From Flavobacterium alvei (GTDB taxonomy: Bacteria; Bacteroidota; Bacteroidia; Flavobacteriales; Flavobacteriaceae), in NCBI RefSeq assembly GCF_002920895.1, contig NZ_PQVG01000005.1, positions 62,001-126,000 on the forward strand: a DNA stretch of 64,000 nt, given 5' to 3'. A program made the translations under genes and the position numbers. Below are positions 1,644 through 45,074 of this stretch, one piece after another. Numbering within the stretch: position 1 is the first letter of the stretch; every line of letters begins with the position of its first letter. The notes under the pieces were generated by a model that was given only the letters and a program-made list of their open reading frames with translations, made no database searches and was not told the origin of the DNA.

Positions 1644-3062
1644 TTATTTTGATTTTGAATGGTTGTAAACTTCCCAACCCATATAATTTCCAAGCGCTTC
1701 CTCAAGGATGGCTGCCGTTTTGGAAGCATTCATCACCACGTGATGCTCGAAACCGTTTTTGCACACATATTGCATCAAGTCTTGCAAGCCATCGATTTGA
1801 GCAACGGCCCTGTTTCCAAAAGTATTCAATGGATCATCGGTCAATTCGCCTTCACCCAAATATACTTTGATGACCCCTTTCGGATCGTCGGTGCTGATTC
1901 TTCCATAAGTCAATGGCGAAGCTGGCGTGCGACCGTCCAATGCGCCATACGTATTTTCCACTCCAACCGTTGTTCCTAAAATAGGTGCGTTGCTGATTTG
2001 AATGTCCGGCAAGAATGATTTTGCCCAGTTACCGCAGTGGAAAAGCACGCATTTTTCATCATCATCGGCGTAGTTGTTGTTCCAATCCACCAAAGCACTC
2101 GGCGAACCCGAAGCTAATTGCATTGCATACATTGTCAAAGTTCCCGTAACGTCAACCTCACAAGCACTTGGCAGCATATTTTCGCTCATCATACTCATAC
2201 TGGTACACACGTTGCAACCGTAATTTTGTTGCAAGGAAGTCCAACATTGAATGGCCGTGGCATCCAAGAAATTGTCGTCCATAAAGTGTTTCAAGACCAC
2301 GTCCAATTTGGCAATTTGAATCATTGCTTCGTCTGGCGTTTTTCCTTTTGGAGCATACGCCAAAATTTTGTCTAAATGTTCTTTTACTTCGGGATGGTCT
2401 TTGGTTAATTTGTTGGCGTTGCCCAAGATTTCGGATAAATCCACGGTGGTTACCGAAATCCCGTTGCGTTGCAATATTTTCTCGCTATATCTTACGGTAT
2501 TGAATCCGCCCGGTCTGGCGCCAACGGCTCCGATTCTTACTTTTCGCAAACCTCTCACCACGCGACAAACCGCCACGAAATCGGTTAGTTCTTTGGCAAA
2601 AGCCGGGTCTTTTGGATGCAAAACGTGATTATCGGTAAGCGTATATTTTATTCCAAATTGGTACAAATTGTTGCAAACCGAAATTTTGCCACACCAAGAA
2701 TCTCTTCTTCGGGCAACGTCCAATTTGGTCAATTCATCTGGATAAGCTTGAATCAAAACCGGTACATTCAAATCGGCTAGTTTCAAGGTTTCGGCTACAC
2801 CGCGTTCGTCACCGAAATTCGGAAGAATTACCAATACTCCGTTAATTTCGTCGGCGTGTTTCTTGAATAAATTGGCACATTTTTGGGCATCTTTGAAGGT
2901 TTCCACTCCGCCTAATTTGGTATCTTCTTCTCCAAGAATTACGTAGTTCAGTTTCAGTTTTTCGAATTGTTCGATAACGTCCAACCGGGCTTCTGCCACT
3001 AATTTATCCGGAAAAAAATCCCTGTTCCCTATAATGATTCCTATGCTTGCTTTCTGTTTCAT
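1644..3062 (-). CDS. L-fucose/L-arabinose isomerase-like sugar isomerase
   Basis: A 472-residue cytoplasmic protein resembling the FucI/AraA isomerase superfamily, which interconverts aldoses and ketoses with a divalent metal. The N-terminal part (IGIIIGNRDFFP, then ILPNFGDERGVAE) looks like the Rossmann-like FucI N-terminal domain. The middle carries conserved-looking acidic and Cys residues (DATAIQCWTSLQQNYG, then MLPSACEVDVTGTLTMYAMQLASG), and a C-terminal domain follows. It is shorter than classical FucI (about 590 residues) and nearer to AraA or the shorter FucI-like proteins. It lies 41 bp after the DeoR gene and 6 bp before the transketolase pair. The substrate is not readable from the sequence. 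Candidates are D-apiose, L-fucose or L-arabinose; apiose is favoured by the split transketolase and by the apiosidase-like gene in the adjacent PUL. Confidence 0.8.
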   Translation of the reverse strand: MKQKASIGIIIGNRDFFPDKLVAEARLDVIEQFEKLKLNYVILGEEDTKLGGVETFKDAQKCANLFKKHADEINGVLVILPNFGDERGVAETLKLADLNVPVLIQAYPDELTKLDVARRRDSWCGKISVCNNLYQFGIKYTLTDNHVLHPKDPAFAKELTDFVAVCRVVRGLRKVRIGAVGARPGGFNTVRYSEKILQRNGISVTTVDLSEILGNANKLTKDHPEVKEHLDKILAYAPKGKTPDEAMIQIAKLDVVLKHFMDDNFLDATAIQCWTSLQQNYGCNVCTSMSMMSENMLPSACEVDVTGTLTMYAMQLASGSPSALVDWNNNYADDDEKCVLFHCGNWAKSFLPDIQISNAPILGTTVGVENTYGALDGRTPASPLTYGRISTDDPKGVIKVYLGEGELTDDPLNTFGNRAVAQIDGLQDLMQYVCKNGFEHHVVMNASKTAAILEEALGNYMGWEVYNHSKSK

Positions 3063-11463: not shown

Positions 11464-14196
11464 TTAATAAAATAACCAATCGATAGCCCCTTTTTCGCCA
11501 GCATCAATATAACCGACATCGCGAGTTGTAATGGTTTGGTTCGCATCAATAAATCCTAAAATCAATACTTTCCCTTTGCCTAAATCCAGTTTATTTTCGC
11601 CGGGTTGAAAGGTGTACGTGTGAATATTTACCCTTGGTAATTCTTTCAAATTCATCGCGCTTGCCAAAATCACTTCGGCTTGACCGTAGGCATTTCCGGC
11701 CGCGTCTGTCTCCAAACTTGGTGGCAACAAGAATCTTTTTTGGTCGGAATTGAAATAACCCACAACCAATTTTACGGCTTTGGTATTTTTGAATTTCAGG
11801 TGAGTTCCATTTTCATTTTGAGCGGTTTCATCGAAAGTAATTCCTTTTAGATTTTGCAATTCAGGAGCTATTTTTACCAGTTCCGAGATTGGAGTTCCAT
11901 AAACTTGAGTTCCGTTTTTTACAGCATAAGTTCCTTTACTCTCGCTCAATAAAGTGACTTCGGCGGTTTGCCAAGGTTTGCCTTCCTTGGTTGCAATTTT
12001 CCCATCTTTCGACAATTTCAATAAAGCCAAATTTCGTTTGAAATTGGCCATTTCTCTTTCGTAATGCGGTAACAATTCTGCCCAGGTCTTGTTGTTTCCA
12101 TCGTCTCCGCCAATCGGGATTCTACGTTGTGCAGTTTGCATACTGTTGGCATACCAATAACTATCTTTGGTCAAATTGACCAATAATTGGTAATGCTCCA
12201 GACTTTTTTCAAGATGTGGCAAGGCTTGATCCAAATCGGAAATGTCGTTGGAATAGCTGTAACGCAAGACCAACATCGCGGCTTTTACTTTCTCCGAAAA
12301 GAAATCGGCGAAGGCTTTGTAAGCGTGCATATCGTTTTTAAGGCGCAAAAATTCTTCTTTGTCCTTGGTTACGCTTGCTTCGGCTTTGTCAATGGCTTCA
12401 ACGGCTAATTTTCCGTGTTGGGTAATTTCGCTTATGATTTGAGGCGGTGTTTCTCCAGCGTGTGCTTTGTGATTCCATTCTTTTTTGGCATAATCCAAAA
12501 GCAATTCAGTAATTGGTCCACAAGATTCGTGGAATCCAGGATAGACACGCCATTTTGCCGGGTTTACCAATTGACTTTCGAACATTCCCAACAGTAATGT
12601 TTGGCGATTTCCTTCGGTAATTCCAAATTGTCTTAATGTTTTTGGGGCTATTTCTCCGGCTTCTTCATAAGCTTTCAAAATATTGTTTCCGGCTTCATCA
12701 TCGGTTCCGTATTTTGCAGCCAAATCTTTGTCCCAGAATTTAACCTCTTCCTTTCGGTCTCTTTTACTGTCCCAAGCATATCTCGACCAGGCTTTGTACC
12801 AAATCCAATCGCGATCCATTTCTAACAATCGCTCACCCGTTTTCGTTTTATCAGCCGAATAGGGCCAATCCCAATACGATGCCTGCGGATACAAATGCAG
12901 CGCATTGGCACCGTGAATATTGTGCATTGCCTGAACGGTTTTTTGGATAAAATCTGGCGAACCATATCGGAAAGGCTCCAAGTTTGCCAAAATATGCACG
13001 TTTTCGATGTGAATGGATTTTAAAGCACTTAGTTGTCTGTGCGTTTCTCCCCAAGGGCCACCAGGTGCATAAGTTGTCAAAGATTCTCCCGTGTATTTGC
13101 TCTCCGTGTACAAGTTTTTATACAACGGAAGCGATTTTTCCATTACCAAAGGCGCATCGGTATCGTGGGAACGCAAAATAATTGGCGGTTCGTCTGTTCT
13201 TCCCAATGCTTTCAATCCGTCCTGCACTCCCGGAATAATGGTTTTTGTAAACCATTCCACGTCATCATCAACTGTGTTGATGGCTTCTCCCAAACAAACC
13301 AACAATCCCACATTGGGGTATTTTTCGATAAAAGCCGCGATTGATTTTCGAGTATAATCGGAAAGCAAAGGCGTAATTGGACGCGAACGATCTTGGGTTT
13401 TGATGTTGTAATGCTCCGCAAAAGGCTTGGAAACGATGATATTGTAAAACATTTGAATTACCCAAATTCCTCGTTTGTTGGCTTCTACGGTAAGGTATTT
13501 ATAGATTTCTTCATTTTTCTTGAAATCCTCTTCGCTGACTTCCATTGCAAACGGATAGTCTTTTAATTTCACCAAGGAGGCAAAAGGATGTCCGTTCCAC
13601 AAATACAAGGAATTCATTCTATTATCCACCATCATATCCAAGTACTTTGTCCACAATTTTTTGTCGTAAAACCAAGGAAAAGTTTCGGGAGTGTATGGAT
13701 ATTCGTAAACGTCTCTTCCGGGAAGATAAACCGGTTTTTGCATTCCGATACAGGCACCTCTCAACACCATTTCCGGACTGTCGTCGATATTGATTTCTGA
13801 GGGAATTTCGCCAGAGGTCTTGATGCGATCAACTAATTCCATTGTGCCATACAAAGCTCCCGTTGCATCGGTTCCTTCAATGTAAATGATGTTTTTCTGC
13901 GTACAAATTTGAAAACCTTCCTTTTTGGTTAATTGGCTGTCATCGATTTTAGCGTTTTTTGAATTTTGTTTCCAAAAGTCGGTTCCTTTTTCACCAATGA
14001 CGATTACTTTGTCTTTTGATTTTTTAGGAACTTTATCCGTAAAAACTACCTTGAATCCTTTGGTAGTTGCTATTTCTGATAATTTTTCAGCTCCGAAGGT
14101 TGCTCTAGGTGCATTGGCATCACGAACAATGGTGATGTTTTGCGCTGATGAAACAGACACGTAAAAACATAAAAAAAGTAAACTTAAATATTTCAT
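11464..14196 (-). CDS. Putative exo-glycosidase with GH67-type N-terminal domain
   Basis: A secreted protein of about 910 residues. I start it at 14196 (MKYLSLLFLCFYVSVSSAQ), the first codon giving a normal signal peptide; an in-frame extension to 14238 only translates an intergenic repeat. Residues about 20-130 resemble the alpha-glucuronidase (GH67/GH115-type) N-terminal domain: VRDANAPRATFGAEKL, VIVIGEKG, then IYIEGTDATGALYGTMEL. A probable TIM barrel follows (MVLRGACIGMQKPVYLPG, NRMNSLYLWNGHP, VGLLVCLGEAINTVDD), then a helical region and a C-terminal beta domain. The Glu in CLGEA is a candidate catalytic residue. I cannot place it in a characterised CAZy family. The context suggests an exo-acting enzyme on acidic pectin side chains. 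Confidence 0.65.
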   Translation of the reverse strand: MKYLSLLFLCFYVSVSSAQNITIVRDANAPRATFGAEKLSEIATTKGFKVVFTDKVPKKSKDKVIVIGEKGTDFWKQNSKNAKIDDSQLTKKEGFQICTQKNIIYIEGTDATGALYGTMELVDRIKTSGEIPSEINIDDSPEMVLRGACIGMQKPVYLPGRDVYEYPYTPETFPWFYDKKLWTKYLDMMVDNRMNSLYLWNGHPFASLVKLKDYPFAMEVSEEDFKKNEEIYKYLTVEANKRGIWVIQMFYNIIVSKPFAEHYNIKTQDRSRPITPLLSDYTRKSIAAFIEKYPNVGLLVCLGEAINTVDDDVEWFTKTIIPGVQDGLKALGRTDEPPIILRSHDTDAPLVMEKSLPLYKNLYTESKYTGESLTTYAPGGPWGETHRQLSALKSIHIENVHILANLEPFRYGSPDFIQKTVQAMHNIHGANALHLYPQASYWDWPYSADKTKTGERLLEMDRDWIWYKAWSRYAWDSKRDRKEEVKFWDKDLAAKYGTDDEAGNNILKAYEEAGEIAPKTLRQFGITEGNRQTLLLGMFESQLVNPAKWRVYPGFHESCGPITELLLDYAKKEWNHKAHAGETPPQIISEITQHGKLAVEAIDKAEASVTKDKEEFLRLKNDMHAYKAFADFFSEKVKAAMLVLRYSYSNDISDLDQALPHLEKSLEHYQLLVNLTKDSYWYANSMQTAQRRIPIGGDDGNNKTWAELLPHYEREMANFKRNLALLKLSKDGKIATKEGKPWQTAEVTLLSESKGTYAVKNGTQVYGTPISELVKIAPELQNLKGITFDETAQNENGTHLKFKNTKAVKLVVGYFNSDQKRFLLPPSLETDAAGNAYGQAEVILASAMNLKELPRVNIHTYTFQPGENKLDLGKGKVLILGFIDANQTITTRDVGYIDAGEKGAIDWLFY

Positions 14197-14213
14197 TTGT
14201 ATTGTTATTTTTT

Positions 14214-14345
14214 GACCACAAATTGCACAAATTAGCACAAATTATAATCTTGATTTTTTCGCCACAGATTACACAGATTTCCACAGATTTCCACAGATTT
14301 CCACAGATTTAAAAAATGCTTTTAACCTTTAAATCTGTGGTTAAA
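14214..14345. repeat. Intergenic '(c)cacagatt' dyad repeat with 10-bp tandem copies
   Basis: The 154-bp gap between two PUL genes holds CCACAAATTGCACAAATT-type sequence, then four 10-bp tandem units at 14271-14310 (three exact CCACAGATTT), and ends with the reverse complement TTTAAATCTGTGG at 14328-14340. The last tandem unit and this end can form a 13-bp stem. The same repeat family occurs at seven other gaps in the window. No gene is seen. Confidence 0.85.
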
Positions 14346-14350
14346 TATTT

Positions 14351-16279
14351 TTAATTCTTGAAAATGCTTTTTAAATATTCCACATTGGCACCATAATTCG
14401 CTTTCACATCGTGAACTTGATTTACATCTCTGGAACGTTCGATAATCAACCAGCCACCCCATTGCATTTTGTCTAAAGTTTTTTTGATTTCCGGCAAATT
14501 CACTGCTTTGTTGTTTTGCAACCAAACACCATCTGTAGTCGAAGCGTGAATTTGGGCAATATTGTCCCTTCCCAATGTTTTTAACTCTTTTGAAATATCT
14601 CTTCCGTTATCAACAGCATTGGCAAAATTGAATGAAATTTTGATGTTTCTATTGCCAATTTCTTCCAATAATTTTTTGTCTCCTGCAGCATCCAATGACG
14701 TTTCTACAGCAATAACACCTCCTATTTTGTTGACTTGTTCGCCAGCCCATCTTAATCTTTCGATAACCTTGGGACGCAATTCAGGATGTTTGGCTAAATC
14801 GCATTGTGTTCCTAATGGCAAATAAGCAATTTGAACATTCGTATTTTTCATCGTTTCGATACAATCGTTCACCATTTTCTCTACCGTTTCTCGCTCTGCG
14901 AAAGATTGGGCATAAAAACCAGACATTGCAATAGAACTAATTTCAACTCCAGTTTCTTTCGATTTGTCCAAAAACTTTTGCCTTTCAACAGGATCGCCTA
15001 ATTTACTATCGAAAGTTTCTCTATTTCCCAACCCGCCCATATCCAATTCGATTCCGTCAGAATTAATGGTTTTGGCCAATTCGAAAGCACCTAATTTTTG
15101 TCTTTTTAGAATCATCCAATCACAAACTGCAACTTGGTATATTTTTTTTGTTGGCCCCGGCCAAACTCCATTCACTATAGGAAATGAAACTAATTTTGAC
15201 GGATCGATTTTCACATATTTAATGCGTTGTCTTCTCCAAGTATAAACACAATGCAACATCCCGTCAGAGCCTTGAATTATGGCTGGATAAGAATACTGAC
15301 CAATTCTTGAATCTTCCAAAACCAAGGAAGCATTCCAATTAATACCGTCTTTTGAAACGGCAATATTTAGTGGCGTTCTAACCCCTTTTGGGTCATCTCC
15401 ATAAGGCAAAACGTGGTTGTAAATCAAAGCGTGTTCCCCGTTTTTCATTGTTACCGCATCGGTTCCTGAATTGTTGTTTGGCAGATTCAAAAGTTCTAAA
15501 GCCGACCAAGTTTTCCCATTATCATTCGAAAAAGTGCTAAACAAATGTCGGTTTCGTGTTCGTCCAATGGCTTGTATTTTGCCTTTTTTATGAAAAAGAA
15601 TACTCGGTTGGATGGCACTAATAGCGTTAATTGTATCTTGTTTTTTACCGATAGTATCGCCCATAATCCAAGTTTTTCCAAAATCGGGAGTCGATTCCAT
15701 ACGCAAATGCCAACCTCCTTTTCCTTCGATGCTTGAAGGACTCAACAAAGTACCATTGGCCAACAAAACAGGCTTGTTTTTGATAGGACCCAAAAAGTCA
15801 TTCGGCAATTTTTCGGGTTTCGACCAAGTTTCACCTCCATCAGAAGAGCGCAATAACATTCCCCACCAAGTTGATGGACTTGGACCAATTTTATAAAAAA
15901 GCAACAAATCTCCTTTTGGAATTTGGTACAAAACAGGATTCCAAGTAGGTAATCTTGGTCCTTCTTTCATAATTCCATTGGCAACTTCAATTCCTTCTGT
16001 CCATTTTCCGTTTTTGCGTTTGCTTACCCAAATCCCAACATCAGGATCTCTTTCGTTGGTACCACCAAACCAAGAAGCTATTAAATCGCCATTGGTCGTT
16101 TCGGCAATAGTTGCTGCGTGACAAGATGGATAAGGAGCGGTCTCAAATATAAATTCTTCGGACACAATTCCTTCTTTCCAAGTTTTGTCTTTTAAAGCTA
16201 TTTTGTTTTCAACTGCCGATTTGCAACTTCCTAAAAGTAGTATGGTTAAAAGGACAACCGAGATTTGTAACGTTTTCAT
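14351..16279 (-). CDS. Fusion lipoprotein: sialidase-like beta-propeller plus TIM-barrel isomerase/epimerase
   Basis: A 642-residue lipoprotein with lipobox LLLGSC (Cys about 19). Residues about 40-375 form a sialidase/BNR-type propeller: HAATIAETTNGDLIASWFGG, several Asp-box-like repeats (SSDGGETWSKP, SNDNGKTWSA, SKDGINWNA), and YSYPAIIQGSDGMLHCVYTW. Residues about 385-642 match the AP-endonuclease-2-fold sugar phosphate isomerase/epimerase family (IELDMGGLGN, ISSIAMSG, GGVIAVETSLD, IAQIHAS, GGWLIIERS). Its start codon overlaps the stop of the GH78 gene by one base, implying translational coupling. An isomerase-like barrel anchored outside the cytoplasm is unlikely to use sugar phosphates. 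Relatives with lyase or 3-keto-glycoside activity are better models. Each half is recognisable at family level; its substrate is unknown. Confidence 0.8.
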   Translation of the reverse strand: MKTLQISVVLLTILLLGSCKSAVENKIALKDKTWKEGIVSEEFIFETAPYPSCHAATIAETTNGDLIASWFGGTNERDPDVGIWVSKRKNGKWTEGIEVANGIMKEGPRLPTWNPVLYQIPKGDLLLFYKIGPSPSTWWGMLLRSSDGGETWSKPEKLPNDFLGPIKNKPVLLANGTLLSPSSIEGKGGWHLRMESTPDFGKTWIMGDTIGKKQDTINAISAIQPSILFHKKGKIQAIGRTRNRHLFSTFSNDNGKTWSALELLNLPNNNSGTDAVTMKNGEHALIYNHVLPYGDDPKGVRTPLNIAVSKDGINWNASLVLEDSRIGQYSYPAIIQGSDGMLHCVYTWRRQRIKYVKIDPSKLVSFPIVNGVWPGPTKKIYQVAVCDWMILKRQKLGAFELAKTINSDGIELDMGGLGNRETFDSKLGDPVERQKFLDKSKETGVEISSIAMSGFYAQSFAERETVEKMVNDCIETMKNTNVQIAYLPLGTQCDLAKHPELRPKVIERLRWAGEQVNKIGGVIAVETSLDAAGDKKLLEEIGNRNIKISFNFANAVDNGRDISKELKTLGRDNIAQIHASTTDGVWLQNNKAVNLPEIKKTLDKMQWGGWLIIERSRDVNQVHDVKANYGANVEYLKSIFKN

Positions 16280-19029
16280 TATTTTATATTATTTGCATTA
16301 ATTTCATAAGTCCCCGAAGGCAATTCAAGAACCACTTTGTTGTTTTCGATTTGATACGATTTGGATACTTTTACATTATTCACTTTCACGTCCGAAGCAT
16401 TTGTTGTTGGCAAATAAACGAGTGCTGTGGTGTTTGCTGGAATGGTAATTTTCCAAACTAAATTACTTTTACCTTTCTTCCAATCGCTTTTTATCAAACC
16501 GTGAATGGACTCGTAGGAAGCATTTACAAAAGTCAATCCGGCATTGAAATCTGGTTTCATAATGATTTGTTCAAAGCCCGGTTTTTCTGGATTGCTCTTG
16601 ATTCCCGCCATATTTTCGTAGTACCAAATCATCAAATCACCCAAAAGCATTACGTGATTTTGCGAATTCATCGTAGGATCGGCGGTATTTCCATTCCACA
16701 ATTCCCAAATAGTGGTAGCCCCATTTTCGACCATATAACCCCAACTTGGATAGGTTTTGTTGGAAGCCAATTTAAAAGCCAAATCACCTCTACCAAAATT
16801 GGTCAAAGTACGCATCAAAAATTGCGTTCCAATAACTCCCGTGCTGATATGCCCTTGTTTGGTCACTTCAATTTCGTGAACCATATTTTGGAATACTTTC
16901 TCTTTTACATTTTCAGGAACCATCCCGAAAGCCAAAGGCAAGACGTTTGCGGTTACCGTATTATTGGCGTAGCTATTGGTCGAAGTATTCAAATATTTGG
17001 CATTGAATGCTTTTTTAATTCTTACCGCCAAATCATCATAATGCGCAATATCATTTTCCTCATTTGCAATAGTTGCAAACTTTTTCATTATCCCCAACAA
17101 TTGATAATAAAAAGCACTTGACAAAACTTCACCATCTGTCATTCGAGCAGGATCTTTGGAACGAATCAATTCCAGCGATTCTGGCGGAACACACCAATCA
17201 CCGTATTTGTCCTTGTCCATCAAATCATTTCGCAGGTAATTTTCTTCCATATACACCATCCATTTTTTCATAGTTGGATACTGCTTTTTAATTACTTCTT
17301 TGTCGGAAAATTGCGTGTACAACATATCGGCAACGGTAATATACGTTCCCGGCCAAGTCACATTATCGCCATAATAACGCCAAAAAGCCGGTGCTACATC
17401 GGGTAATCCTCCATCTTGTGTTTGGGAATATTTAATATCATCGAGCCATTTGGCATACAAGGTTTGGTTATCGAATAAAAAACTTTCGCCATAAGCACCC
17501 GTTGTTCTATCGCCTAACCAAGGCTGACGCTCGTTACGTTGCGGACAATCAATTGGCATTCCTTTGTAATTTCCGCTGATTCCCCACCACGCATTTTTAA
17601 AAATCTGGTTCATCGTGGCATCCGAAGATTCGAAAGTTCCGGTGGTTTTGATATCGTCATACACCACTTTTCCAACGAAATTGTCCAAGGTTGGCTTGGT
17701 CAGAAAACCTGAAATTTCTACAAATCGGAAACCGTGAAATATAAAACGGGGTTCCCAGATTTCTTCGCCTTCGCCTTTCAATGTATAAACATCAGTCGTT
17801 TTGGCATCACGCAAATTGGCAATGTATAACGAACCATCTTTTTGCAAAGACTCGGCAAATTTCATCGTTATTTGGTCGCCGCTTTTCCCTTTAACTTTCA
17901 ATTGCAACCAGCCCACCATATTCTGGCCCATATCCAAAATGTAAGTTTCTTTGGCAGTTGCTTTAATCGAAATTGGTTTTACTTCGCCCATAATTTTCAT
18001 ATTCGGCGACATTTGGGCTTCAAAAAAACCGCCCGGTTCTTGCACATAACGAGCATTTACCCAAGATTTATCATCAAAATTGGTGGTGTTCCAACCTTTC
18101 ATTTCCTTGCGGGCATCGTATTCTTCACCGTCGTATTCGTTGTTGGACAAAATCGGTCCATCGGTGGTTAGTTTCCAACTATCATCGGTTCGAATAACTT
18201 CATTGCTTCCATCGGTATATTCCACGAATAACTGCAAAGCCATTTTTGGCATTCCAAACGACTTAATTTTATACGGTTTATAATCCTGACGCATTGCAAA
18301 AAATCGTCCGTTTCCTAAAATCGTTCCCAACATATTTTTGCCTTCTTTCAATTGGGCAGTCACATCAAAAACATTGTATTTTACGTTTTTGGTATAATCT
18401 GTTGGAACAGGTGCCAAAACCTGGTCTCCAATTTTATTTCCGTTGATGTACAACTCATACAAGCCCATACCCATAATATAGACCTTGGCACTTTTAACTT
18501 GTTTTTTCAAATCAATTTCTTTTCGCAAATAACGGGCTGACAATCTCGAATACTGGGAAACGCTATCATCTTTCGACAATTTTTCATAGCCAATCCAGCG
18601 TGTCGATTTCCAGTCGGCATAAGTTAAAATTCCTATGCTAAAATGGGCAGTTGTAGCCGATTTTATTTCGCCTTTATTGGTAAAAACGGTTACTTTCCAA
18701 AACGCATTTTGTCGGTCTCCCAATTTTTTTCCATTGTAAATAATATTGACCGATTCGTTACTAGTTACTTTTCCACTATCCCATAAATCCGCTTTGTTGG
18801 CATTCAGGTTTTCCAATGTTGAAGCCACCATAATTTGATAGGCTGTTTGTTTTACATCGTTTCCTTCTGCATTAATTTGCCAACTTAATCTTGGTTGCAA
18901 AACATCAATTCCTTCTGGATTGTCCAGCATTTCGGTTTGCAAATTGCTTACACCATTTTTTTGGGCTTGCGCCAAAGAAAAACTTAGCGATGCAATGAGG
19001 ATGAAGGTGTATAAAAATGTTTTTTTCAT
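16279..19029 (-). CDS. GH78 alpha-L-rhamnosidase
   Basis: A secreted inverting alpha-L-rhamnosidase of 916 residues, normal for Bacteroidota GH78, with signal peptide MKKTFLYTFILIASLSFSLAQA. Domains in order are a fibronectin-like domain (LSWQINAEGNDVKQTAYQIMVAS), a jelly-roll rhamnose-binding domain (YIMGMGLYELYINGNKIGD), the (alpha/alpha)6 barrel, and a C-terminal beta-sandwich. The catalytic acid region is IDCPQRNERQPWLGD (Glu about 498) and the catalytic base is in TTIWELWNG (Glu about 775). It would strip L-rhamnose from rhamnogalacturonan. It is 8 bp downstream of the T9SS protein gene and overlaps the propeller/TIM gene. It is a distant paralogue of the GH78 gene at 26346-29099. Confidence 0.96.
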   Translation of the reverse strand: MKKTFLYTFILIASLSFSLAQAQKNGVSNLQTEMLDNPEGIDVLQPRLSWQINAEGNDVKQTAYQIMVASTLENLNANKADLWDSGKVTSNESVNIIYNGKKLGDRQNAFWKVTVFTNKGEIKSATTAHFSIGILTYADWKSTRWIGYEKLSKDDSVSQYSRLSARYLRKEIDLKKQVKSAKVYIMGMGLYELYINGNKIGDQVLAPVPTDYTKNVKYNVFDVTAQLKEGKNMLGTILGNGRFFAMRQDYKPYKIKSFGMPKMALQLFVEYTDGSNEVIRTDDSWKLTTDGPILSNNEYDGEEYDARKEMKGWNTTNFDDKSWVNARYVQEPGGFFEAQMSPNMKIMGEVKPISIKATAKETYILDMGQNMVGWLQLKVKGKSGDQITMKFAESLQKDGSLYIANLRDAKTTDVYTLKGEGEEIWEPRFIFHGFRFVEISGFLTKPTLDNFVGKVVYDDIKTTGTFESSDATMNQIFKNAWWGISGNYKGMPIDCPQRNERQPWLGDRTTGAYGESFLFDNQTLYAKWLDDIKYSQTQDGGLPDVAPAFWRYYGDNVTWPGTYITVADMLYTQFSDKEVIKKQYPTMKKWMVYMEENYLRNDLMDKDKYGDWCVPPESLELIRSKDPARMTDGEVLSSAFYYQLLGIMKKFATIANEENDIAHYDDLAVRIKKAFNAKYLNTSTNSYANNTVTANVLPLAFGMVPENVKEKVFQNMVHEIEVTKQGHISTGVIGTQFLMRTLTNFGRGDLAFKLASNKTYPSWGYMVENGATTIWELWNGNTADPTMNSQNHVMLLGDLMIWYYENMAGIKSNPEKPGFEQIIMKPDFNAGLTFVNASYESIHGLIKSDWKKGKSNLVWKITIPANTTALVYLPTTNASDVKVNNVKVSKSYQIENNKVVLELPSGTYEINANNIK

Positions 19030-24760: not shown

Positions 24761-26188
24761 CTATTTTTTAACCTCGTAAACTTTCAGATTTTTTTCTCCA
24801 AACATTTCATATAATTTATTGATATCTTTCAATGCATTTTTCGGCAGATTTTCAACTTTATTGCCAAAAACGTATAACTTATCGTAAGGTTCAATCACAC
24901 AAGTTGATTCGTCAATTTCGCCTTTATCATTTTGCACTTTCTTCAAATCCAAACCTAAATATTTCGCCATAAACGGATACAACGCCATACGTTTTGAAAC
25001 CCCGAAATCGTGTCCTTCATTCGCAAAATGGGCATTTTCGACCAAATCCTTTTTGCCGTACATTTCATAAGTGCGTTGGATAAAAGGGAATTCCAATTCG
25101 GGAACCGCCAGTGTCCAGTCTTTTCCGTCAGAAACTATTAGTTGTGGTTTTGGTGCCATCATTGCCGAGATTTCAGCATTATTGGTTCCGTTTCCGCAAA
25201 GGTGAATTCCGCGACCACTCTCGCACGGACATCCTCCCGAAAAATGCGAAGACACCATAACAACAGGAGCAGAAACCTTAATCCTGTCGTCCAAAGCTGC
25301 CAAAAACATCGTGTGCGAACCGCCACCAGAACCTCCGGTAACGCCAACTCTTGTAACATCGGCATTTTTGATGGTGGCCAGATAATCCAACAATCGGATT
25401 CCGCTCAACACCTGAACGGTTGATGCGATGCTGTTTCTATGTGTTTCTTCCGGGAATTGCAATAAGGATTCTCCCCAGGCAAATAAATCGTAACTCACTA
25501 CGATTGCTCCCATTTTGGCCATTATGGCACAACGGTATTGCTCATCTTTTCTATATCTTCCGTCGCCAAAATGTCCGTCTGGCGTCAAGATAATTGGGGC
25601 TTTTTTATTTAAAGGATACGGTTTATAAATCGAACCCGTTGCATAAACTCCGGGAAGAATTTCCAATCCAATATTTTCAACGCTGTAATCTTTATAAATT
25701 CTTTTCGGAGTTAAAATTGGTTTTGATTTGGGCATTAGCGGAGCTTTGTCCAAACCAAAAGACGTGATCATACAGGCTTTGATTTCCTTTTTTCTGGCTT
25801 CCCATTCTGTTGTATTGGAATACAAAGTGGTTAAATAATTTAAACGTTCTTTGCCTTTATCGACCGAAACTTTATGGTTTTCATATTTTCTGATGATGTA
25901 GGTTCCGTCGGGCTGTTTAAAATACATCAATTCGAACGGCGCCAGAATATTGGTCAATGAAACAGCGAGATTTCCGGGTTCGATTCTCCAATCGGCATAA
26001 TCGAGTTCTTTTCCTTTCAGTAAACCACGGTCGTCATTTATGGCAACATTAAAAATGGTTCCTATTTTTTGAATCGTTTCCGAAACGGGTTTTCTGAAAT
26101 TCGTATCCGATGTGCATTGTGCGTTTGCAAGTGTCAATGTGAAGATTGAGACTAGTAAAGTAAATGTTATGTTTTTTAAATTTTTCAT
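24761..26188 (-). CDS. STN-like domain fused to an acetylxylan-esterase-type alpha/beta hydrolase
   Basis: A secreted esterase of 475 residues with signal peptide MKNLKNITFTLLVSIFTLTLANAQ. The C-terminal alpha/beta hydrolase has its nucleophile Ser in GVTGGSGGG (about residue 287), Asp in DGKDWT (about 356) and His in EGHDFG (about 392). It resembles acetyl esterases of the AXE1/CE7 neighbourhood and would deacetylate pectin or rhamnogalacturonan. A CPCESGRGIHLCGNG segment gives several Cys near the active site. Residues about 30-105 (ETIQKIGTIFNVAIND, then ILAPFELMYFKQPDGTYIIRKY) resemble the STN/secretin N-terminal fold normally found on TonB receptors and secretins, which is unusual on an enzyme. 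The STN call is by pattern only. Confidence 0.8.
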   Translation of the reverse strand: MKNLKNITFTLLVSIFTLTLANAQCTSDTNFRKPVSETIQKIGTIFNVAINDDRGLLKGKELDYADWRIEPGNLAVSLTNILAPFELMYFKQPDGTYIIRKYENHKVSVDKGKERLNYLTTLYSNTTEWEARKKEIKACMITSFGLDKAPLMPKSKPILTPKRIYKDYSVENIGLEILPGVYATGSIYKPYPLNKKAPIILTPDGHFGDGRYRKDEQYRCAIMAKMGAIVVSYDLFAWGESLLQFPEETHRNSIASTVQVLSGIRLLDYLATIKNADVTRVGVTGGSGGGSHTMFLAALDDRIKVSAPVVMVSSHFSGGCPCESGRGIHLCGNGTNNAEISAMMAPKPQLIVSDGKDWTLAVPELEFPFIQRTYEMYGKKDLVENAHFANEGHDFGVSKRMALYPFMAKYLGLDLKKVQNDKGEIDESTCVIEPYDKLYVFGNKVENLPKNALKDINKLYEMFGEKNLKVYEVKK

Positions 26189-29205: not shown

Positions 29206-31080
29206 TTATAACTTTTCCGTAATCAATGATTTAACATTAAATACTGCCTCCGGAATCAATTTTCCTGTATCTGGTAAATCAACAAAATCCGGTGTATCTG
29301 GTTCTGTATCGGCATTTGGTGTATAACGCTGATTGCCTGTACGGAACATTATTCTTGAAATACCATCAACGGGAGAATAGAATATTTTGTTCGTTTCCTT
29401 TCCATCATTCACTTTTACGGTGTAGGAACGGGAAGTAACGTCTAATTTTACGGTAACAGTGTACTCCTTTCCTGCCTCATATTTCGTGATTCCACCAAAA
29501 CGGGCACCATTTTTAGCTTTTAATTCTCCATCCGAATCGAACACCAATCGAATGGCGGGAAGTCCTTGTTTATTTTGAAATTCGATTTGTAACAAGCCGT
29601 GATTATTTTGCTCTGGCGTTACGATAAAAGTCGCTTCCATTTTTTGTGCAAACGGAATCACGCGTTCGGCACGGGAATAATCAAAAGCATCTTGGTCTCT
29701 CAAAGTTAGGCTTTTTTTGCCATCGGTTTTCTTTTCGATTTTGGCGGAAGCCCAAGCCAAATCGTAGGTATTCCATAATTTTAATTCTTCACCGTTTGGC
29801 AAATCATTAAACACATCGTTGGCATTTTCTTTCACTTCACTTGTCACCGGAACCGGAATCGAAGCCACCCAAATATCTTCCTTGTTCATACTGTAACTCA
29901 CCCAAAGTTTTCCGTCTGGCGGTGTTCCATCGGTTTCGGGAATCCCGCGAACGTATTGTGGGCCGGCTGATTTGTAATTTCCTCCGTAACGCATCGGAGA
30001 AATTTCACCGTGAACCAACAATAAATCTTTATAATTCAGTCCGTCGTCACTGGTTGAAATTGCCAATGGCCAACGGTATTCTGACGGATTATAAACCGTT
30101 GCATAACGATTATCGGAGGTTTTTTGACCCCAAATTTTGGCATTGCTGTTTACGAATCCTGGCGCCCTTGTCGGAATGTATTGCCAAGTTTTCCCTTCGT
30201 CTTTACTGATAGAGGTCAGGGCAAATTTCCATAAACCTACTACGTTTCCGTTTGGTAAATGGTAATAATTGAAGGCTTTGTATTGTTTTTTTAACGGAAT
30301 CAATTTATCATCACGATCGGCTTCTTCTACCCATTGTTGCATTAACAATGGTTTGGAAAGTAGCTCATCGCAGGCTTTGATAAACTTTTTGTCTTTGCTT
30401 TTGGTATAAAATGAAAAGGTTGTTGGCAACGGATTCCCATTTTTATTGTATCTGATAAAATAAATAGGGCCAAACGTTCCGTCTTTGTAAATTTCACGAA
30501 CCACGCGACCAATTCCTTTTCCGTCATTTGGGTCGTCTTTTTTGTCCATTGCGACTCCATAATAACCCAAAGCAAGCAATCTTTTATCGGACGTAACATA
30601 AAAACCCATTCGTTGGTGCATCACGGCATCGAGATTTTTGGCAACGCCTTCCACTCCCTCTTTTTTGAATCCGTCAGGAATGCGATAAATTGGGAAAAGC
30701 ACCGTCGGTTTTGTCCAAGTTACCCCATCTTTGGAAGTCATCAAAAAAGTTTGTCCCGGCGGAATGTGTTCGCCTGTTGGGTCACTCAAATAATGCAAAT
30801 AAAAGGTATTATTCCAATAGGCCATCATCGACTGGTGGTTGTAGGTCCAACCAAAACCATCGGCTTTTTCAGGATGTTCACGACTGGCTCGCATAATTTG
30901 CGTAGCGTGAACTCCAACTGCCGGACTCAATTGCCCGTGATGGTAATCGACATTGGAAAGTGTTTTACCTGTATATCGTATCGTGTCTTGTTGGGCTTGC
31001 GCCGAATTAACCGCGACACAGCTCAACAAAATGGTTGTTGCCGTTACGATATTGTTTTTTATGTTTTGAAATGCAATCAT
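29206..31080 (-). CDS. Sialidase/BNR-like beta-propeller protein with C-terminal beta-sandwich
   Basis: A secreted protein of about 624 residues. The start at 31080 gives the signal peptide MIAFQNIKNNIVTATTILLS; a longer frame to 31149 runs into repeat sequence. Residues about 40-420 form a propeller with aromatic, Asp-box-like repeats (SPAVGVHATQIMRASREHP, YNHQSMMAYWNNTFYLHYLS, MTSKDGVTWTKP, SISKDEGKTWQYIP, STSDDGLNYKDL, KLWVSYSMNKEDIWVASIP). Residues about 440-600 look like a concanavalin-type jelly roll (LLQIEFQNKQGLPAIRLVFDSDG). Related proteins in Bacteroidota pectin loci are annotated as exo-alpha-sialidase, but sialic acid is not expected here. It could be a hydrolase for another sugar, possibly a 2-keto sugar, or a polysaccharide lyase. 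No catalytic residues can be assigned safely. Confidence 0.7.
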   Translation of the reverse strand: MIAFQNIKNNIVTATTILLSCVAVNSAQAQQDTIRYTGKTLSNVDYHHGQLSPAVGVHATQIMRASREHPEKADGFGWTYNHQSMMAYWNNTFYLHYLSDPTGEHIPPGQTFLMTSKDGVTWTKPTVLFPIYRIPDGFKKEGVEGVAKNLDAVMHQRMGFYVTSDKRLLALGYYGVAMDKKDDPNDGKGIGRVVREIYKDGTFGPIYFIRYNKNGNPLPTTFSFYTKSKDKKFIKACDELLSKPLLMQQWVEEADRDDKLIPLKKQYKAFNYYHLPNGNVVGLWKFALTSISKDEGKTWQYIPTRAPGFVNSNAKIWGQKTSDNRYATVYNPSEYRWPLAISTSDDGLNYKDLLLVHGEISPMRYGGNYKSAGPQYVRGIPETDGTPPDGKLWVSYSMNKEDIWVASIPVPVTSEVKENANDVFNDLPNGEELKLWNTYDLAWASAKIEKKTDGKKSLTLRDQDAFDYSRAERVIPFAQKMEATFIVTPEQNNHGLLQIEFQNKQGLPAIRLVFDSDGELKAKNGARFGGITKYEAGKEYTVTVKLDVTSRSYTVKVNDGKETNKIFYSPVDGISRIMFRTGNQRYTPNADTEPDTPDFVDLPDTGKLIPEAVFNVKSLITEKL

Positions 31081-31095
31081 TGTTTTTATTTTTTT

Positions 31096-31254
31096 GCCAC
31101 AGATTTCACAGATTTTGCTTCGCCTGTTCGTCTTACAGACTCGAGTCACAGATTTTTTCTTGAATTTGCTTGTTTAATTTTTCACGCAGATTCAGCAGAT
31201 TTTCGCAGATTATCTTTTTTATTTTAATCCGTGTTAATCTTTAAAATCTGTGGC
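31096..31254. repeat. Intergenic dyad repeat, composite
   Basis: GCCACAGATTT at 31096-31106 and AAATCTGTGGC at 31244-31254 are perfect reverse complements closing a 183-bp gap. Inside are CACGCAGATTCAGCAGATTTTCGCAGATT-type pieces and the string CTTCGCCTGTTCG, which recurs at about 33800. It appears to be a mosaic of several repeat variants. No gene is seen. Confidence 0.8.
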
Positions 31255-33843: not shown

Positions 33844-35241
33844 TTATTTGTTTGACGTTAGAATAAGCACCCAGTCGTTTCCGTCTTCTTTTTTGCCAGT
33901 AGGCTGAAATTCCTGAACTCCTTTATTAGCAACAATTCCGATTTTAGTTTTTTGTCCATTGCTTGGATTGTACCAAGTTGCCGTTACTTTATCTCCAGCG
34001 ATTTTACCCATATTTATGGCAATTTTTCGACCTGTATAAGTGTAAATCAAGGCATAATTCTTTCCTTTGGTGGCAACCAAATAGTCGTATTTTTCTCCTT
34101 GATTCGCAATCAATGATTGATCTGGAACTCTTTCGAAATATGGAAATTCTAACATTAATTTTTTAAGATAAACCATTTGTCCGGCTCCCGGCGCCTTGAT
34201 GGCATCGTACCAAAATACTTTGTTTCCGTAGGCTGGTTTGTCTCCTTTTCTGAACATCTGCATCACGGCATTATGACCGTACGTATAACCTGCAGCTCCA
34301 GCAAAAACAGACCAATAGCCATATCTTCTCACATCGCTTGCTTTCCATAATGGTTGCAAGGTATCGTGCAAACCGTGAGGAATTCCTTCGTAAGAGGGTT
34401 CTCCGTCAAGTGTTGGTTTGATAGGTTTTAAAGTCAAATCTCTTTGAACGAATTTGTAATTGTCTTCTTTAAAAGAACCCGGCAAGGTATCTTGATCATA
34501 TCTTCTGTGTCCTGATTGAAACATATTGAAATCCAACCAAGTCGCAGTATGATAATCATCCGAAGAATCTGTTCTCCCGAAAGGGTGGAAAGTCACCAAT
34601 TGATTTGGATTATTGGTTTTTAACGTACTTCCGATGCCATTCCAAATGTCTTTGAATTCGTTACCGTGCGTATCGCCACCATTCATCCAAATAACATTCG
34701 TTCTGTTTTTATAGCGATTCGCCAAAAACTGGGCATATTTTATAACTTGTTCTTTGCTGACTTTACTGTTTTTACTACTAATATTGGTCCCCCAAACCGG
34801 AACCATCCCAACGTAAATTCCGTTTTTCTGCGCCACGTCCAAAACATAATCTACGTGATCCCAATAATCGTATTCTGCTGCGTTATTGAAATTATTACCC
34901 GGAGTGGTTATCGGTTTCGAAATGTCTTCATTTACCAAAGCTGCGTCACCATACACATTCACCGCATTGATGTTATGCAAAACCATAATTTGAACCACGT
35001 TGAATCCTTTTGCTTTTCGATCTTGAAAATATTTATTTACACCTTCCCTGTCCAATTTTCCAAAAGTCAGCCAACCGGTATCACCCAACCAGAAAAAAGG
35101 TTTGCCGTCTTCGGTAACAAAATAATATTGGTTCTTGGAAACTTTGAGTTTTGGTAAATTTTTGGATTGCGAAAATCCGCTTTGTGCAGTAAACATAAAG
35201 CTTATGCAAAGAGCGTATAAATATTTAATTTTCAGATTCAT
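33844..35241 (-). CDS. GH140-like apiosidase-family enzyme (DUF4038)
   Basis: A 465-residue secreted protein (MNLKIKYLYALCISFMFTAQSGFS) matching the apiosidase-like/DUF4038 TIM barrel with a C-terminal collagen-binding-like domain. Diagnostic stretches are GKPFFWLGDTGWLTFGKL, KGFNVVQIMVLHNINAVN, NRTNVIWMNGGDTHGNEF (Asp about 189, candidate acid/base), KPTLDGEPSYEGIPHGLHD (Glu about 280, candidate nucleophile) and FAGAAGYTYGHNAVMQMF. GH140 members cleave the linkage between D-apiose and galacturonic acid in rhamnogalacturonan II. The C-terminal DWVLIL segment is also typical. Membership in the DUF4038 superfamily is strong; apiosidase activity is the best guess but not proven by motif. Confidence 0.85.
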   Translation of the reverse strand: MNLKIKYLYALCISFMFTAQSGFSQSKNLPKLKVSKNQYYFVTEDGKPFFWLGDTGWLTFGKLDREGVNKYFQDRKAKGFNVVQIMVLHNINAVNVYGDAALVNEDISKPITTPGNNFNNAAEYDYWDHVDYVLDVAQKNGIYVGMVPVWGTNISSKNSKVSKEQVIKYAQFLANRYKNRTNVIWMNGGDTHGNEFKDIWNGIGSTLKTNNPNQLVTFHPFGRTDSSDDYHTATWLDFNMFQSGHRRYDQDTLPGSFKEDNYKFVQRDLTLKPIKPTLDGEPSYEGIPHGLHDTLQPLWKASDVRRYGYWSVFAGAAGYTYGHNAVMQMFRKGDKPAYGNKVFWYDAIKAPGAGQMVYLKKLMLEFPYFERVPDQSLIANQGEKYDYLVATKGKNYALIYTYTGRKIAINMGKIAGDKVTATWYNPSNGQKTKIGIVANKGVQEFQPTGKKEDGNDWVLILTSNK

Positions 35242-38660: not shown

Positions 38661-40340
38661 TTACTGTACTAATGCTTTTAACTGTGCCAGCGTATCGGTG
38701 TTATTTTCAATTTTCGTCCAATCCGTTTTTTTGGTTGGGTCGATTCCGTTAATATATTTCTCGATATTGGTATAACCGTCGCCATTCAAATCTTTGTTGG
38801 CATCGGAGGCATCTTTTGGATTCAACCCATATTTAGTTTCCCAAGCATCAGGAATTCCGTCATTATCCGAATCTTTATAAGCTTTCCCTTTGTATTCTGG
38901 ATAACCGCCCACTTGATTTGGATTGGTTATAATTCCTCTTTTATACGAATCGGCAGGCAATCTTCTTTTGATGAATTCTTTGCCAATTGAATTTTCCAAT
39001 CCGTCTTTAACTTCAATTTTTCCAGTACGAACCTGTTTAACGATTCTTTCATCTACTGCATCACGTTTTGGTAAAGTCGCTCCTGCATTTTCTAATACAA
39101 AATCGTAAGCTTGTTCCGCTTTCATAATAGCAATTGGCGGCATTCTAAAAGCTTTATTTTGTTTAATTTGTGCCAAAAAGTCTTTGGTAATTTCAGGCGA
39201 CAAATCTTCTAATTGCACTCCACCATTCCAGTTATCGGCTGTTACTTCTGGCGAACCCACAATAAAGTTTCCGTCAACAAAGGCTTTTCCGTACTGTTTT
39301 GGACTAATATAACCTGATTCGGGTTTGATGATTCGATAACGAATCGGCTGATCGGTTGGCGTGATTGGTCCCGGTTTGAAATAATTATTGATAATGTTGT
39401 ATTGCGAACGATAGTCTCCACCATCAAGGGTACGATTCCACCAATTGAAAACGACATTATTTACAAAGTTAAAGCTTCCATACATTCCAACCGAGGCATT
39501 TCTCGAAATATTATCGGCCCATAAATTGCGGATAAACATACTATTCAAACCACCGATAGTACTTCCGAAAGCGTGATTGTAAGTATCCAGACCTTCTGAC
39601 GAAATGGTATTCTGAATGGTCACATTAACAGCCGGGAGTTTTTCTAACTTTGATTTTTCGTTAGCCTGAAACTGGTGGCGGTATAACGAAATATTTTCGT
39701 CTAATCCCCAACTCATCGAGCAGTGATCAATAATTACGTTTCCAATCACGTTTCCTCCCAAAGCATCGTCACGACGGGTCACTTCGGTTTCTCCACGGCG
39801 AAAACGCATATAACGGATGATAATATCGTGAGTGTCTAATAAAACCGATTCTCCTGCAACGCAAATTCCGTCGCCCGGTGCTGTTTGTCCCGCGATTGTG
39901 ATGTAAGGCGCACGAACAGTAATTGGTTTTTTAAGACGAATAATTCCCGAAACATTAAACACTACGGCACGAGCTCCAACGGCTTCAAGCGCTTCACGGA
40001 AAGTTCCTTTTCCGCTGTCTTCCAAACTTGTGACAACAAATATTTTACCTCCACGACCACCTGGAGTCTGAGCTCCGCCTCCCATTGCGCCGGGAAAAGC
40101 TGGGATATCAGCATGAACCAAATCGGTTGGCAATGACGCCCAAGGCACATAAGGGCGGCCCTGTAAGGCTTCGGCTTTAATGATATGTTCATTTTCTTTC
40201 CAAACCTGATCCAGACGATCACTTTCAGCTTTCATCATAGCATCGGTTTTTTCTTGAAGCGGTTTTGGAATATCTGGATATTGGGCAAATACAGACGAAA
40301 AAGACAAGCAGCAAACAACTGCCGTAAAAACTTTATTCAT
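38661..40340 (-). CDS. PL1-type pectate lyase with calcium-binding C-terminal repeats
   Basis: A secreted beta-eliminating pectate lyase of about 559 residues. I start at 40340 (MNKVFTAVVCCLSFSSVFA) rather than 40367. The catalytic beta-helix shows FPGAMGGGAQTPGGRGGKIFVVTSLEDSG, ITIAGQTAPGDGICVAGES, IIIRYMRFRRGE, IIDHCSMSWGLDENIS and a long asparagine-rich rung region (NFVNNVVFNWWNRTLDGGDY). A C-terminal DSDNDGIPDAWETKYGLNP and NKDLNGDGYTNIEKYING pair forms calcium-binding, thrombospondin-3/dockerin-like loops. It would cleave de-esterified homogalacturonan. It is paralogous to the PL1 gene at 41151-42860, with DUF3826 between them. Confidence 0.92.
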   Translation of the reverse strand: MNKVFTAVVCCLSFSSVFAQYPDIPKPLQEKTDAMMKAESDRLDQVWKENEHIIKAEALQGRPYVPWASLPTDLVHADIPAFPGAMGGGAQTPGGRGGKIFVVTSLEDSGKGTFREALEAVGARAVVFNVSGIIRLKKPITVRAPYITIAGQTAPGDGICVAGESVLLDTHDIIIRYMRFRRGETEVTRRDDALGGNVIGNVIIDHCSMSWGLDENISLYRHQFQANEKSKLEKLPAVNVTIQNTISSEGLDTYNHAFGSTIGGLNSMFIRNLWADNISRNASVGMYGSFNFVNNVVFNWWNRTLDGGDYRSQYNIINNYFKPGPITPTDQPIRYRIIKPESGYISPKQYGKAFVDGNFIVGSPEVTADNWNGGVQLEDLSPEITKDFLAQIKQNKAFRMPPIAIMKAEQAYDFVLENAGATLPKRDAVDERIVKQVRTGKIEVKDGLENSIGKEFIKRRLPADSYKRGIITNPNQVGGYPEYKGKAYKDSDNDGIPDAWETKYGLNPKDASDANKDLNGDGYTNIEKYINGIDPTKKTDWTKIENNTDTLAQLKALVQ

Positions 40341-40400
40341 GCTTTTATTTTGAAAAGTGCTACGCATTGGAATCTTTGTTAAAATTAAATTTATAAATGA

Positions 40401-45055: not shown

Positions 45056-45074
45056 AATTAACTTTTTAATTGAA

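Follow-up and report, generated by a model that had tools for sequence, protein, structure and literature searches.

The DNA analysed here is a window of 64,000 nucleotides from Flavobacterium alvei (contig NZ_PQVG01000005.1, positions 62,001 to 126,000; all coordinates below are positions in the window unless a locus is named). Its gene at 14351–16279 on the minus strand was found to encode a lipoprotein that joins a sialidase-fold propeller to a xylose-isomerase-like triosephosphate isomerase (TIM) barrel in one chain. This open reading frame (ORF) and its two-domain fusion were confirmed to be real and intact, and the fusion was shown to go back to one old joining of two neighbouring genes, with a single origin in the sample, and to be under purifying selection in both halves. 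The best overall explanation, to which we give a probability of roughly one half, is that the gene encodes a lipoprotein of a rhamnogalacturonan II (RG-II) locus in which a propeller that would release 3-deoxy-D-manno-oct-2-ulosonic acid (Kdo) is combined with an enolising barrel.

The ORF is free of internal stops and codes for 642 aa. The protein opens with LLLGSC, the end of a lipoprotein signal peptide (16223–16279, minus strand) whose lipobox, LGSC, closes at Cys19; the G-S-C of this lipobox was also found in the propeller genes of four relatives with separate propeller and barrel genes (split relatives). The six-bladed propeller (residues 36–366; 15182–16174, minus strand) matched Pfam BNR_2 at residues 64–344 (E 5.9e-85, 285 bits, cut-off 31.4), and the barrel (residues 381–642; 14354–15139, minus strand) matched AP_endonuc_2 in the same chain at residues 399–638 (E 1.3e-14, 55 bits, cut-off 31.1), covering profile positions 1–248 of 249. 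A short junction, NGVWPGPTKKI (residues 370–380; 15140–15172, minus strand), lies between the two. The NCBIfam scan of the protein gave matches below cut-off only. The AlphaFold2 model of the full-length protein had a mean predicted local distance difference test score (pLDDT) of 89.7 and a predicted template modelling score (pTM) of 0.83, and the barrel modelled alone reached a pLDDT of 93.8 and a pTM of 0.92. A lipobox and a propeller fused to a TIM barrel had been proposed in a sequence-only reading of the window, and this part of it was borne out. The same reading had placed the lipoprotein on the cell surface. In Bacteroidetes, the surface-export signal of lipoproteins consists of acidic residues after the Cys, and by this rule the residues following Cys19, KSAVEN, do not form such a signal. 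The surface location was accordingly not upheld, and a periplasm-facing lipoprotein appears at least as likely as a surface-exposed one.

Full-length fused chains were found in three of 398 Flavobacterium genomes (one per species, that of the window included), namely the window's own, G315 (96% identical) and G256 (86%). Both halves were present as separate matches in at least 63 further genomes of this set, among the matches listed; species with both halves mostly had them as adjacent genes, the barrel carrying its own export signal. In a draw of 397 genomes from the family, seven besides that of the window contained the fused gene, all outside Flavobacterium, and four contained the split genes (two Flavobacterium and two of other genera). 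At most three candidates per genome were scored in the Flavobacterium, family and outside-family scans. The barrel alignment was also run against named genomes, where 274 relatives were confirmed; of the 80 loci kept, four were fused (F. fluvii, F. cellulosilyticum, Wenyingzhuangia gilva and a metagenome-assembled genome of Bacteroidia) and 76 were split. Throughout the Flavobacteriaceae rows listed, propeller and barrel were either adjacent or fused.

In four split relatives that were read closely, the propeller stops a few residues past a conserved WPG and the barrel gene opens with its own signal peptide. The distance from the WPG codons to the barrel's first Tyr was 15 bp in the four fused named loci and likewise in the window's gene, whereas it was 163–1045 bp (median 298) in the 76 split named loci. 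This comparison shows that a deletion between neighbouring genes made the fusion, and a frameshift origin was ruled out by the same spacings. Open frames of about 700–766 aa were seen in some split Flavobacterium genomes; they were rejected as extra fusions, since the barrel had a separate frame bounded by stops in all 28 examined. In a tree of both halves (38 rows, quick search, with support from the Shimodaira-Hasegawa-like approximate likelihood ratio test, SH-aLRT, only), the 12 fused proteins formed one clade (SH-aLRT 98), the fused/split label needed one change, and the split state was ancestral when distant split rows were used as outgroup. The occurrence of the fusion as a 12-genome clade excludes a strain-specific or artefactual origin; a frameshift-made fusion unique to this strain had been named in the sequence-only reading as fatal to its proposal. 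Besides, the junction was identical in the fused genes of F. fluvii and F. cellulosilyticum, which makes an assembly error in the window's genome very unlikely. The three fused Flavobacterium genes grouped with those of other genera and apart from the rest of Flavobacterium, a pattern suggestive of movement of the locus between genera.

The ratio of nonsynonymous to synonymous substitution rates (dN/dS, Nei-Gojobori) was determined for the window's gene against F. fluvii, F. cellulosilyticum, Wenyingzhuangia and G481. Where not saturated, it was 0.055–0.089 for the propeller and 0.013–0.092 for the barrel; the barrel comparison with F. cellulosilyticum was saturated, as were those of both halves with G720. 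Literature searches on the fusion, RG-II, Kdo and GH33 returned no title or abstract on such a fusion. What the fusion shows is that the two products share one place and one pathway; a hand-over of product between them does not follow from it.

Foldseek and VIA-align grouped the propeller with bacterial sialidases, of glycoside hydrolase (GH) family 33, and with human sialidases, the top matches showing 2.2–2.5 Å and 17–19% identity. Foldseek matched it to 1eur (E 5e-17), and VIA-align gave a Z score of 37.2 over 317 residues to NanI (8u5o, 2bf6) and the Micromonospora viridifaciens sialidase (1w8o). Asp boxes were found at residues 145, 197 and 251, with a degenerate one at 309, so that the six-bladed propeller with Asp boxes expected of GH33 is present. 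Residues were counted in the 35 of 50 alignment rows with more than 250 letters in the first 452 columns, and were placed with the known residue numbers of the Micromonospora sialidase as background and a register from global hhalign alignment to two FRIP-type sialidases (Prob 99); R240 and Q224 were placed by spacing only. A local profile register, in which the second blade of the propeller lay on the first blade of the sialidase, was dropped for this global one. H54, E76, Q224, R240, D274, R301, Y331 and R350 were each present in 35 of 35 rows and Y329 in 32 of 35. In the hhalign alignment, His54 stands opposite the FRIP Arg, Y331 opposite the Tyr of an AYSD stretch and R301 opposite a sialidase Arg; R240 was unpaired, and fits the place of the second arginine only by the Glu-to-Arg spacing of 16. 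The catalytic Tyr of GH33 was thus found as Y331, although the spacing in sialidases would favour Y329. The acid Asp of sialidases was not retained in register, and the neighbouring E76 is invariant. In comparison with NanI and the M. viridifaciens enzyme, the propeller has the same six-bladed fold, with R301 and Y331 paired by alignment and R240 by spacing, but differs in having His54 for the FRIP Arg, Gln224 (by spacing) at the place of the Glu and the acid Asp out of register.

The GH78-type α-L-rhamnosidase GH78a (16279–19029, minus strand) lies directly upstream and overlaps the ATG of the fused gene by 1 base. GH78a was adjacent to the propeller, one gene away from it or fused to it in 19 of the 21 propeller loci compared, and three of these encode a GH78a protein of about 1,270 aa whose C-terminal part is the propeller (L188:5790–9569, L189:13007–16828 and L191:5571–9377). 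A GH78 gene close by or fused, in an RG-II locus, as would be expected for a Kdo hydrolase, was found both in the window and in these 19 loci. From the texts consulted, in part, RG-II enzymes include 'rhamnosidases (GH78)' and 'Kdo hydrolase (GH33)' (PMC11214529), chain C of RG-II ends with α1,5-Rha (PMC12282258) and Kdo is present in chain C (PMC12168206). The adjacency of GH78a, the rhamnose on the Kdo of chain C and the named GH33 Kdo hydrolase together lead us to read the propeller as the enzyme that likely releases Kdo from RG-II side chain C. It resembles the named hydrolase in that a sialidase-type propeller of an RG-II locus has a GH78 rhamnosidase as its partner, and differs in that it forms one lipoprotein with a TIM barrel; the likeness is one of description (PMC11214529, seen in part). 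A two-step activity on a pectin side chain, proposed in the sequence-only reading as not yet described, is plausible for RG-II as far as the two steps go, but the activity of the propeller has probably been named for RG-II before and would not be new.

The GH78a-propeller proteins are candidates for a complete RG-II chain C enzyme. They resemble a chain C counterpart of BT_1020 (GH143 and GH142), in which one protein reportedly combines an exo-glycosidase with a propeller to trim a two-sugar side chain of RG-II, chain D; the window's protein differs in having a propeller and a barrel and no glycosidase. A propeller paralogue (48% identical) was also observed fused to an α-L-fucosidase domain (PF01120) and an F5/8 type C domain (L172:1435–3852). 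In the window's own genome only two BNR_2 matches were found, the fused gene and a GH143-type gene of the same locus.

The barrel was confirmed to have the AP_endonuc_2 fold by both profile and structure, with VIA-align Z scores of 25.7 to the isomerase Art22 (8z1i), 24–26 to ketose 3-epimerases (D-allulose, D-tagatose, L-ribulose; UlaE) and 23.9 to AtHYD. A PDB profile search with a five-row barrel alignment gave nothing at E 0.01, and one with 29 rows gave only D-tagatose 3-epimerases (E 0.007) and one chance match (0.85). With the ligand numbers of the ketose epimerases as background, hidden Markov model (HMM) alignment to D-tagatose 3-epimerase placed E526, N551, H578 and E614 on its Glu, Asp, His and Glu, respectively. 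In the 29 rows used for counting, E526 was present in 28, and H578, E614, R393, R420, R615 and R617 were each present in all. The set of two glutamates suggests that a proton is transferred at a position adjacent to a carbonyl, and the four invariant arginines would suit binding of a carboxylate. Compared to ketose 3-epimerases, the barrel has a similar fold with both catalytic Glu and the metal His, but it is exported, linked to RG-II, has Asn for the metal Asp and four invariant Arg, and shows only 10–16% identity. On these residues, the barrel may tentatively be regarded as an enolising isomerase, epimerase or dehydratase acting on an acidic sugar of RG-II, perhaps free Kdo.

The presence of a barrel of cytoplasmic type outside the cell had been seen as a surprise in the sequence-only reading, which was not supported, as close homologues are exported on their own. 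A lipobox pattern was found on the separate barrel genes of 58 of the 76 split named loci, with 18 lacking it (by pattern match, not by a signal-peptide predictor), and a motif RRxF[IL], resembling that of twin-arginine translocation (Tat), in 5 of 11 split barrel rows outside Flavobacterium. Export is thus normal for the barrel subfamily and not a consequence of the fusion. The genes with the Tat-like motif (L192, L193, L180, L181 and L182) belong to several lineages, and most named Flavobacterium copies match the lipobox pattern. Export by a Tat-like signal would be in keeping with a protein that is already folded around a metal when it leaves the cytoplasm.

The barrel was further shown to co-occur with an RG-II marker enzyme, and as an exported protein it marks RG-II degraders. 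Class-level draws of 345 genomes each were made for the barrel and for GH143 and were taken as the same draw (printed genomes agree), with at most seven candidates scored per genome. The barrel was present at ≥50% identity in 10 of 345 genomes, with relatives at 25–31% in three more, and GH143 was over cut-off in 11, with one more below cut-off. All 10 barrel genomes were among the 11 GH143 genomes and none among the 334 others (Fisher p 2e-18, overstated by kinship of the genomes). By their genus codes these 10 genomes span seven genera, and in the seven co-occurrence genomes outside Flavobacterium the barrel, propeller and GH143 genes were on one contig within about 13–67 kb.

In the mechanism that we propose, the upstream GH78 would take off the terminal L-rhamnose of chain C, and the propeller would then hydrolyse the Kdo ketoside. 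The Kdo carboxylate would be held by R240 and R301, two of the three sialidase arginines, with His54 replacing the third, and Tyr331 (or Tyr329) would be the probable nucleophile. The barrel would take the released acidic ketose and remove the proton next to the keto group by means of E526, E614, His578 and a divalent metal bound partly by Asn551, while R393, R420, R615 and R617 may bind the carboxylate of its substrate. In this way Kdo or another acidic RG-II sugar could be converted into an importable or usable form, and the fusion would hold both steps at one membrane-anchored site.

Several observations weigh against a Kdo-releasing propeller joined to an enolising barrel. The motif [FYW]RIP was found in 0 of 35 propeller rows, His54 standing at the place of the FRIP Arg in all of them, and Gln224, likewise in 35 of 35, stands where the sialidase Glu is expected by spacing; GH78a was absent near the propeller in two of the 21 loci (L184 and L186). 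Since its active site differs from that of standard sialidases, the propeller is called sialidase-like here, and its Kdo hydrolase function is only inferred. In the barrel, the metal Asp is replaced by Asn551 in 28 of 29 rows and by Lys in one, which leaves the Glu-Asp-His-Glu tetrad of ketose 3-epimerases incomplete with Glu, His and Glu kept, and E526 is Arg in one distant row. The residue check that the sequence-only reading had asked for therefore gave a mixed outcome, with the FRIP Arg and the metal Asp changed and the two Glu and the His of the barrel kept. One GH143 genome, G988, had no close barrel (a 31% relative only). In four of nine genomes outside Flavobacteriaceae the barrel lies about 10–48 kb from the propeller, and in the other five it lies one to three genes from it, beside a BT1017-like esterase. 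BT1017-type modules joined to xylose-isomerase-like barrels are described in the part of PMC7939467 that was consulted, so that the fusion partners of the barrel may follow gene order. This, together with the distances outside Flavobacteriaceae, limits the functional argument that can be drawn from the fusion.

These last observations favour a barrel that acts on another RG-II product (for example apiose, a methylated sugar, aceric acid or 3-deoxy-D-lyxo-hept-2-ulosaric acid (Dha)), or that works with a BT1017-like esterase on the backbone, and that was fused to the propeller only as its neighbour. The esterase lies between barrel and propeller in G887, G937 and G843, and this explanation is a credible one, if short of an even chance; it fits less well with the adjacency or fusion of the two genes in the Flavobacteriaceae rows listed and with one fusion event kept across several genera. 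A barrel serving only as a non-catalytic binding or scaffold domain would account for the Asn at the metal site and for the loss of E526 and N551 in one distant row each, but the epimerase site retains both Glu and its His in 28–29 of 29 rows, alongside four invariant Arg, and the barrel's dN/dS is 0.01–0.09 where measurable, which makes it improbable. A 3-keto-glycoside activity, put forward in the sequence-only reading, was considered in the form of a β-eliminase acting on an oxidised RG-II sugar, as AtHYD, a 2-hydroxy-3-keto-glucal hydratase, belongs to the same superfamily and the 3-keto-glucoside 4-epimerase YcjR was among the Foldseek matches of the barrel. The 3-keto-O-glycoside eliminase AtOGE uses a catalytic His (PMC10628242, consulted in part), and this residue has no counterpart in the barrel, the position two residues past E526 being Ser in 22, Thr in 3 and Ala in 4 of the 29 rows (β5 register from E526). 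The Pfam scan, which took in 32 proteins of the window, matched no oxidoreductase family either. The barrel shares its superfamily with AtOGE and AtHYD but has neither the His nor, among these proteins, a partner oxidoreductase. A Gfo/Idh gene with no signal peptide evident by eye does occur on the same strand at about 10 kb from the window, where it neighbours an SSF symporter gene. Altogether the 3-keto-glycoside activity is highly improbable and was not upheld. For the propeller, the sialidase fold (Z 37) and the apparent retention of two Arg and the Tyr of the site would also agree with an ordinary sialidase or an enzyme that cleaves another acidic RG-II sugar, a uronic acid or Dha; given that no row carries the FRIP motif and that Dha is presumably served by the locus's own GH143-type gene, this is unlikely.

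Few plant polysaccharides are as complex as RG-II, and the Bacteroides thetaiotaomicron system is stated to break all but one of its linkages (PMC12282258, in the part consulted). The barrel is a plausible RG-II enzyme to which the literature passages compared assign no function. As an exported protein accompanying GH143 in 10 of 11 genomes, it would be a missing part of the RG-II pathway. It is conceivable, though doubtful, that it is an unrecognised core RG-II enzyme that processes, outside the cytoplasm, an acidic sugar released from RG-II, with Kdo as the likeliest one, and is coupled to the releasing hydrolase in some Flavobacteriaceae. The fusion offers a natural pairing of the two domains, and the GH78a-propeller fusions a direct candidate for a chain C enzyme.

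The other genes of the locus, of which those given with coordinates in this paragraph are on the minus strand, leave little doubt that its predicted substrate is RG-II, in agreement with the pectin locus assumed in the sequence-only reading. Directly downstream of the fused gene is a relative of BPa0997 (11464–14238; PDB 6HZE–6HZG, phmmer E 0), which we take to be a GH138 RG-II galacturonidase. A BT_1020-like propeller of GH143 type (29206–31149; PF24067, E 3e-123) presumably serves RG-II chain D and Dha. Besides, an apiosidase related to 3KZS (BT_1012) is located at 33844–35241, a transport pair of SusD and SusC type (Plug) was recognised with Pfam at 43052–48452, and a BT1017-like RG-II pectin methylesterase at 24761–26188 matched 6GOC by phmmer (E 5.5e-121), the structure of BT1017 (PMC7939467, consulted in part). 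GH106, GH127, GH95, GH28, GH43, two GH78, GH2 and pectinesterase were the other families found in the window, and together with the relatives of BT1017, BPa0997, BT_1012 and BT_1020 they argue for RG-II.

At the edge of the locus, transketolase is encoded as two subunit genes (816–1637 and L205:17843–18811), the former beside a gene with an L-fucose-isomerase C-terminal domain (1644–3062). About 9–12 kb to the left of the window, an OiaX-like RuBisCO-like protein (L205:7728–8966) and an OiaK-like kinase (L205:6346–7725) were found, both below the NCBIfam cut-off, in a region that also contains a ribose-type ATP-binding cassette transporter and an FGGY kinase. By the steps of the apiose pathway, the OiaX- and OiaK-like genes, transketolase and transporter make apiose catabolism beside the RG-II locus possible. 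Two proteins of 568 and 569 aa (38661–40367 and 41151–42860) had no Pfam match; distant RG-II loci conserve them at 62–67%, L184 having the first and L182, L184 and L187 the second.

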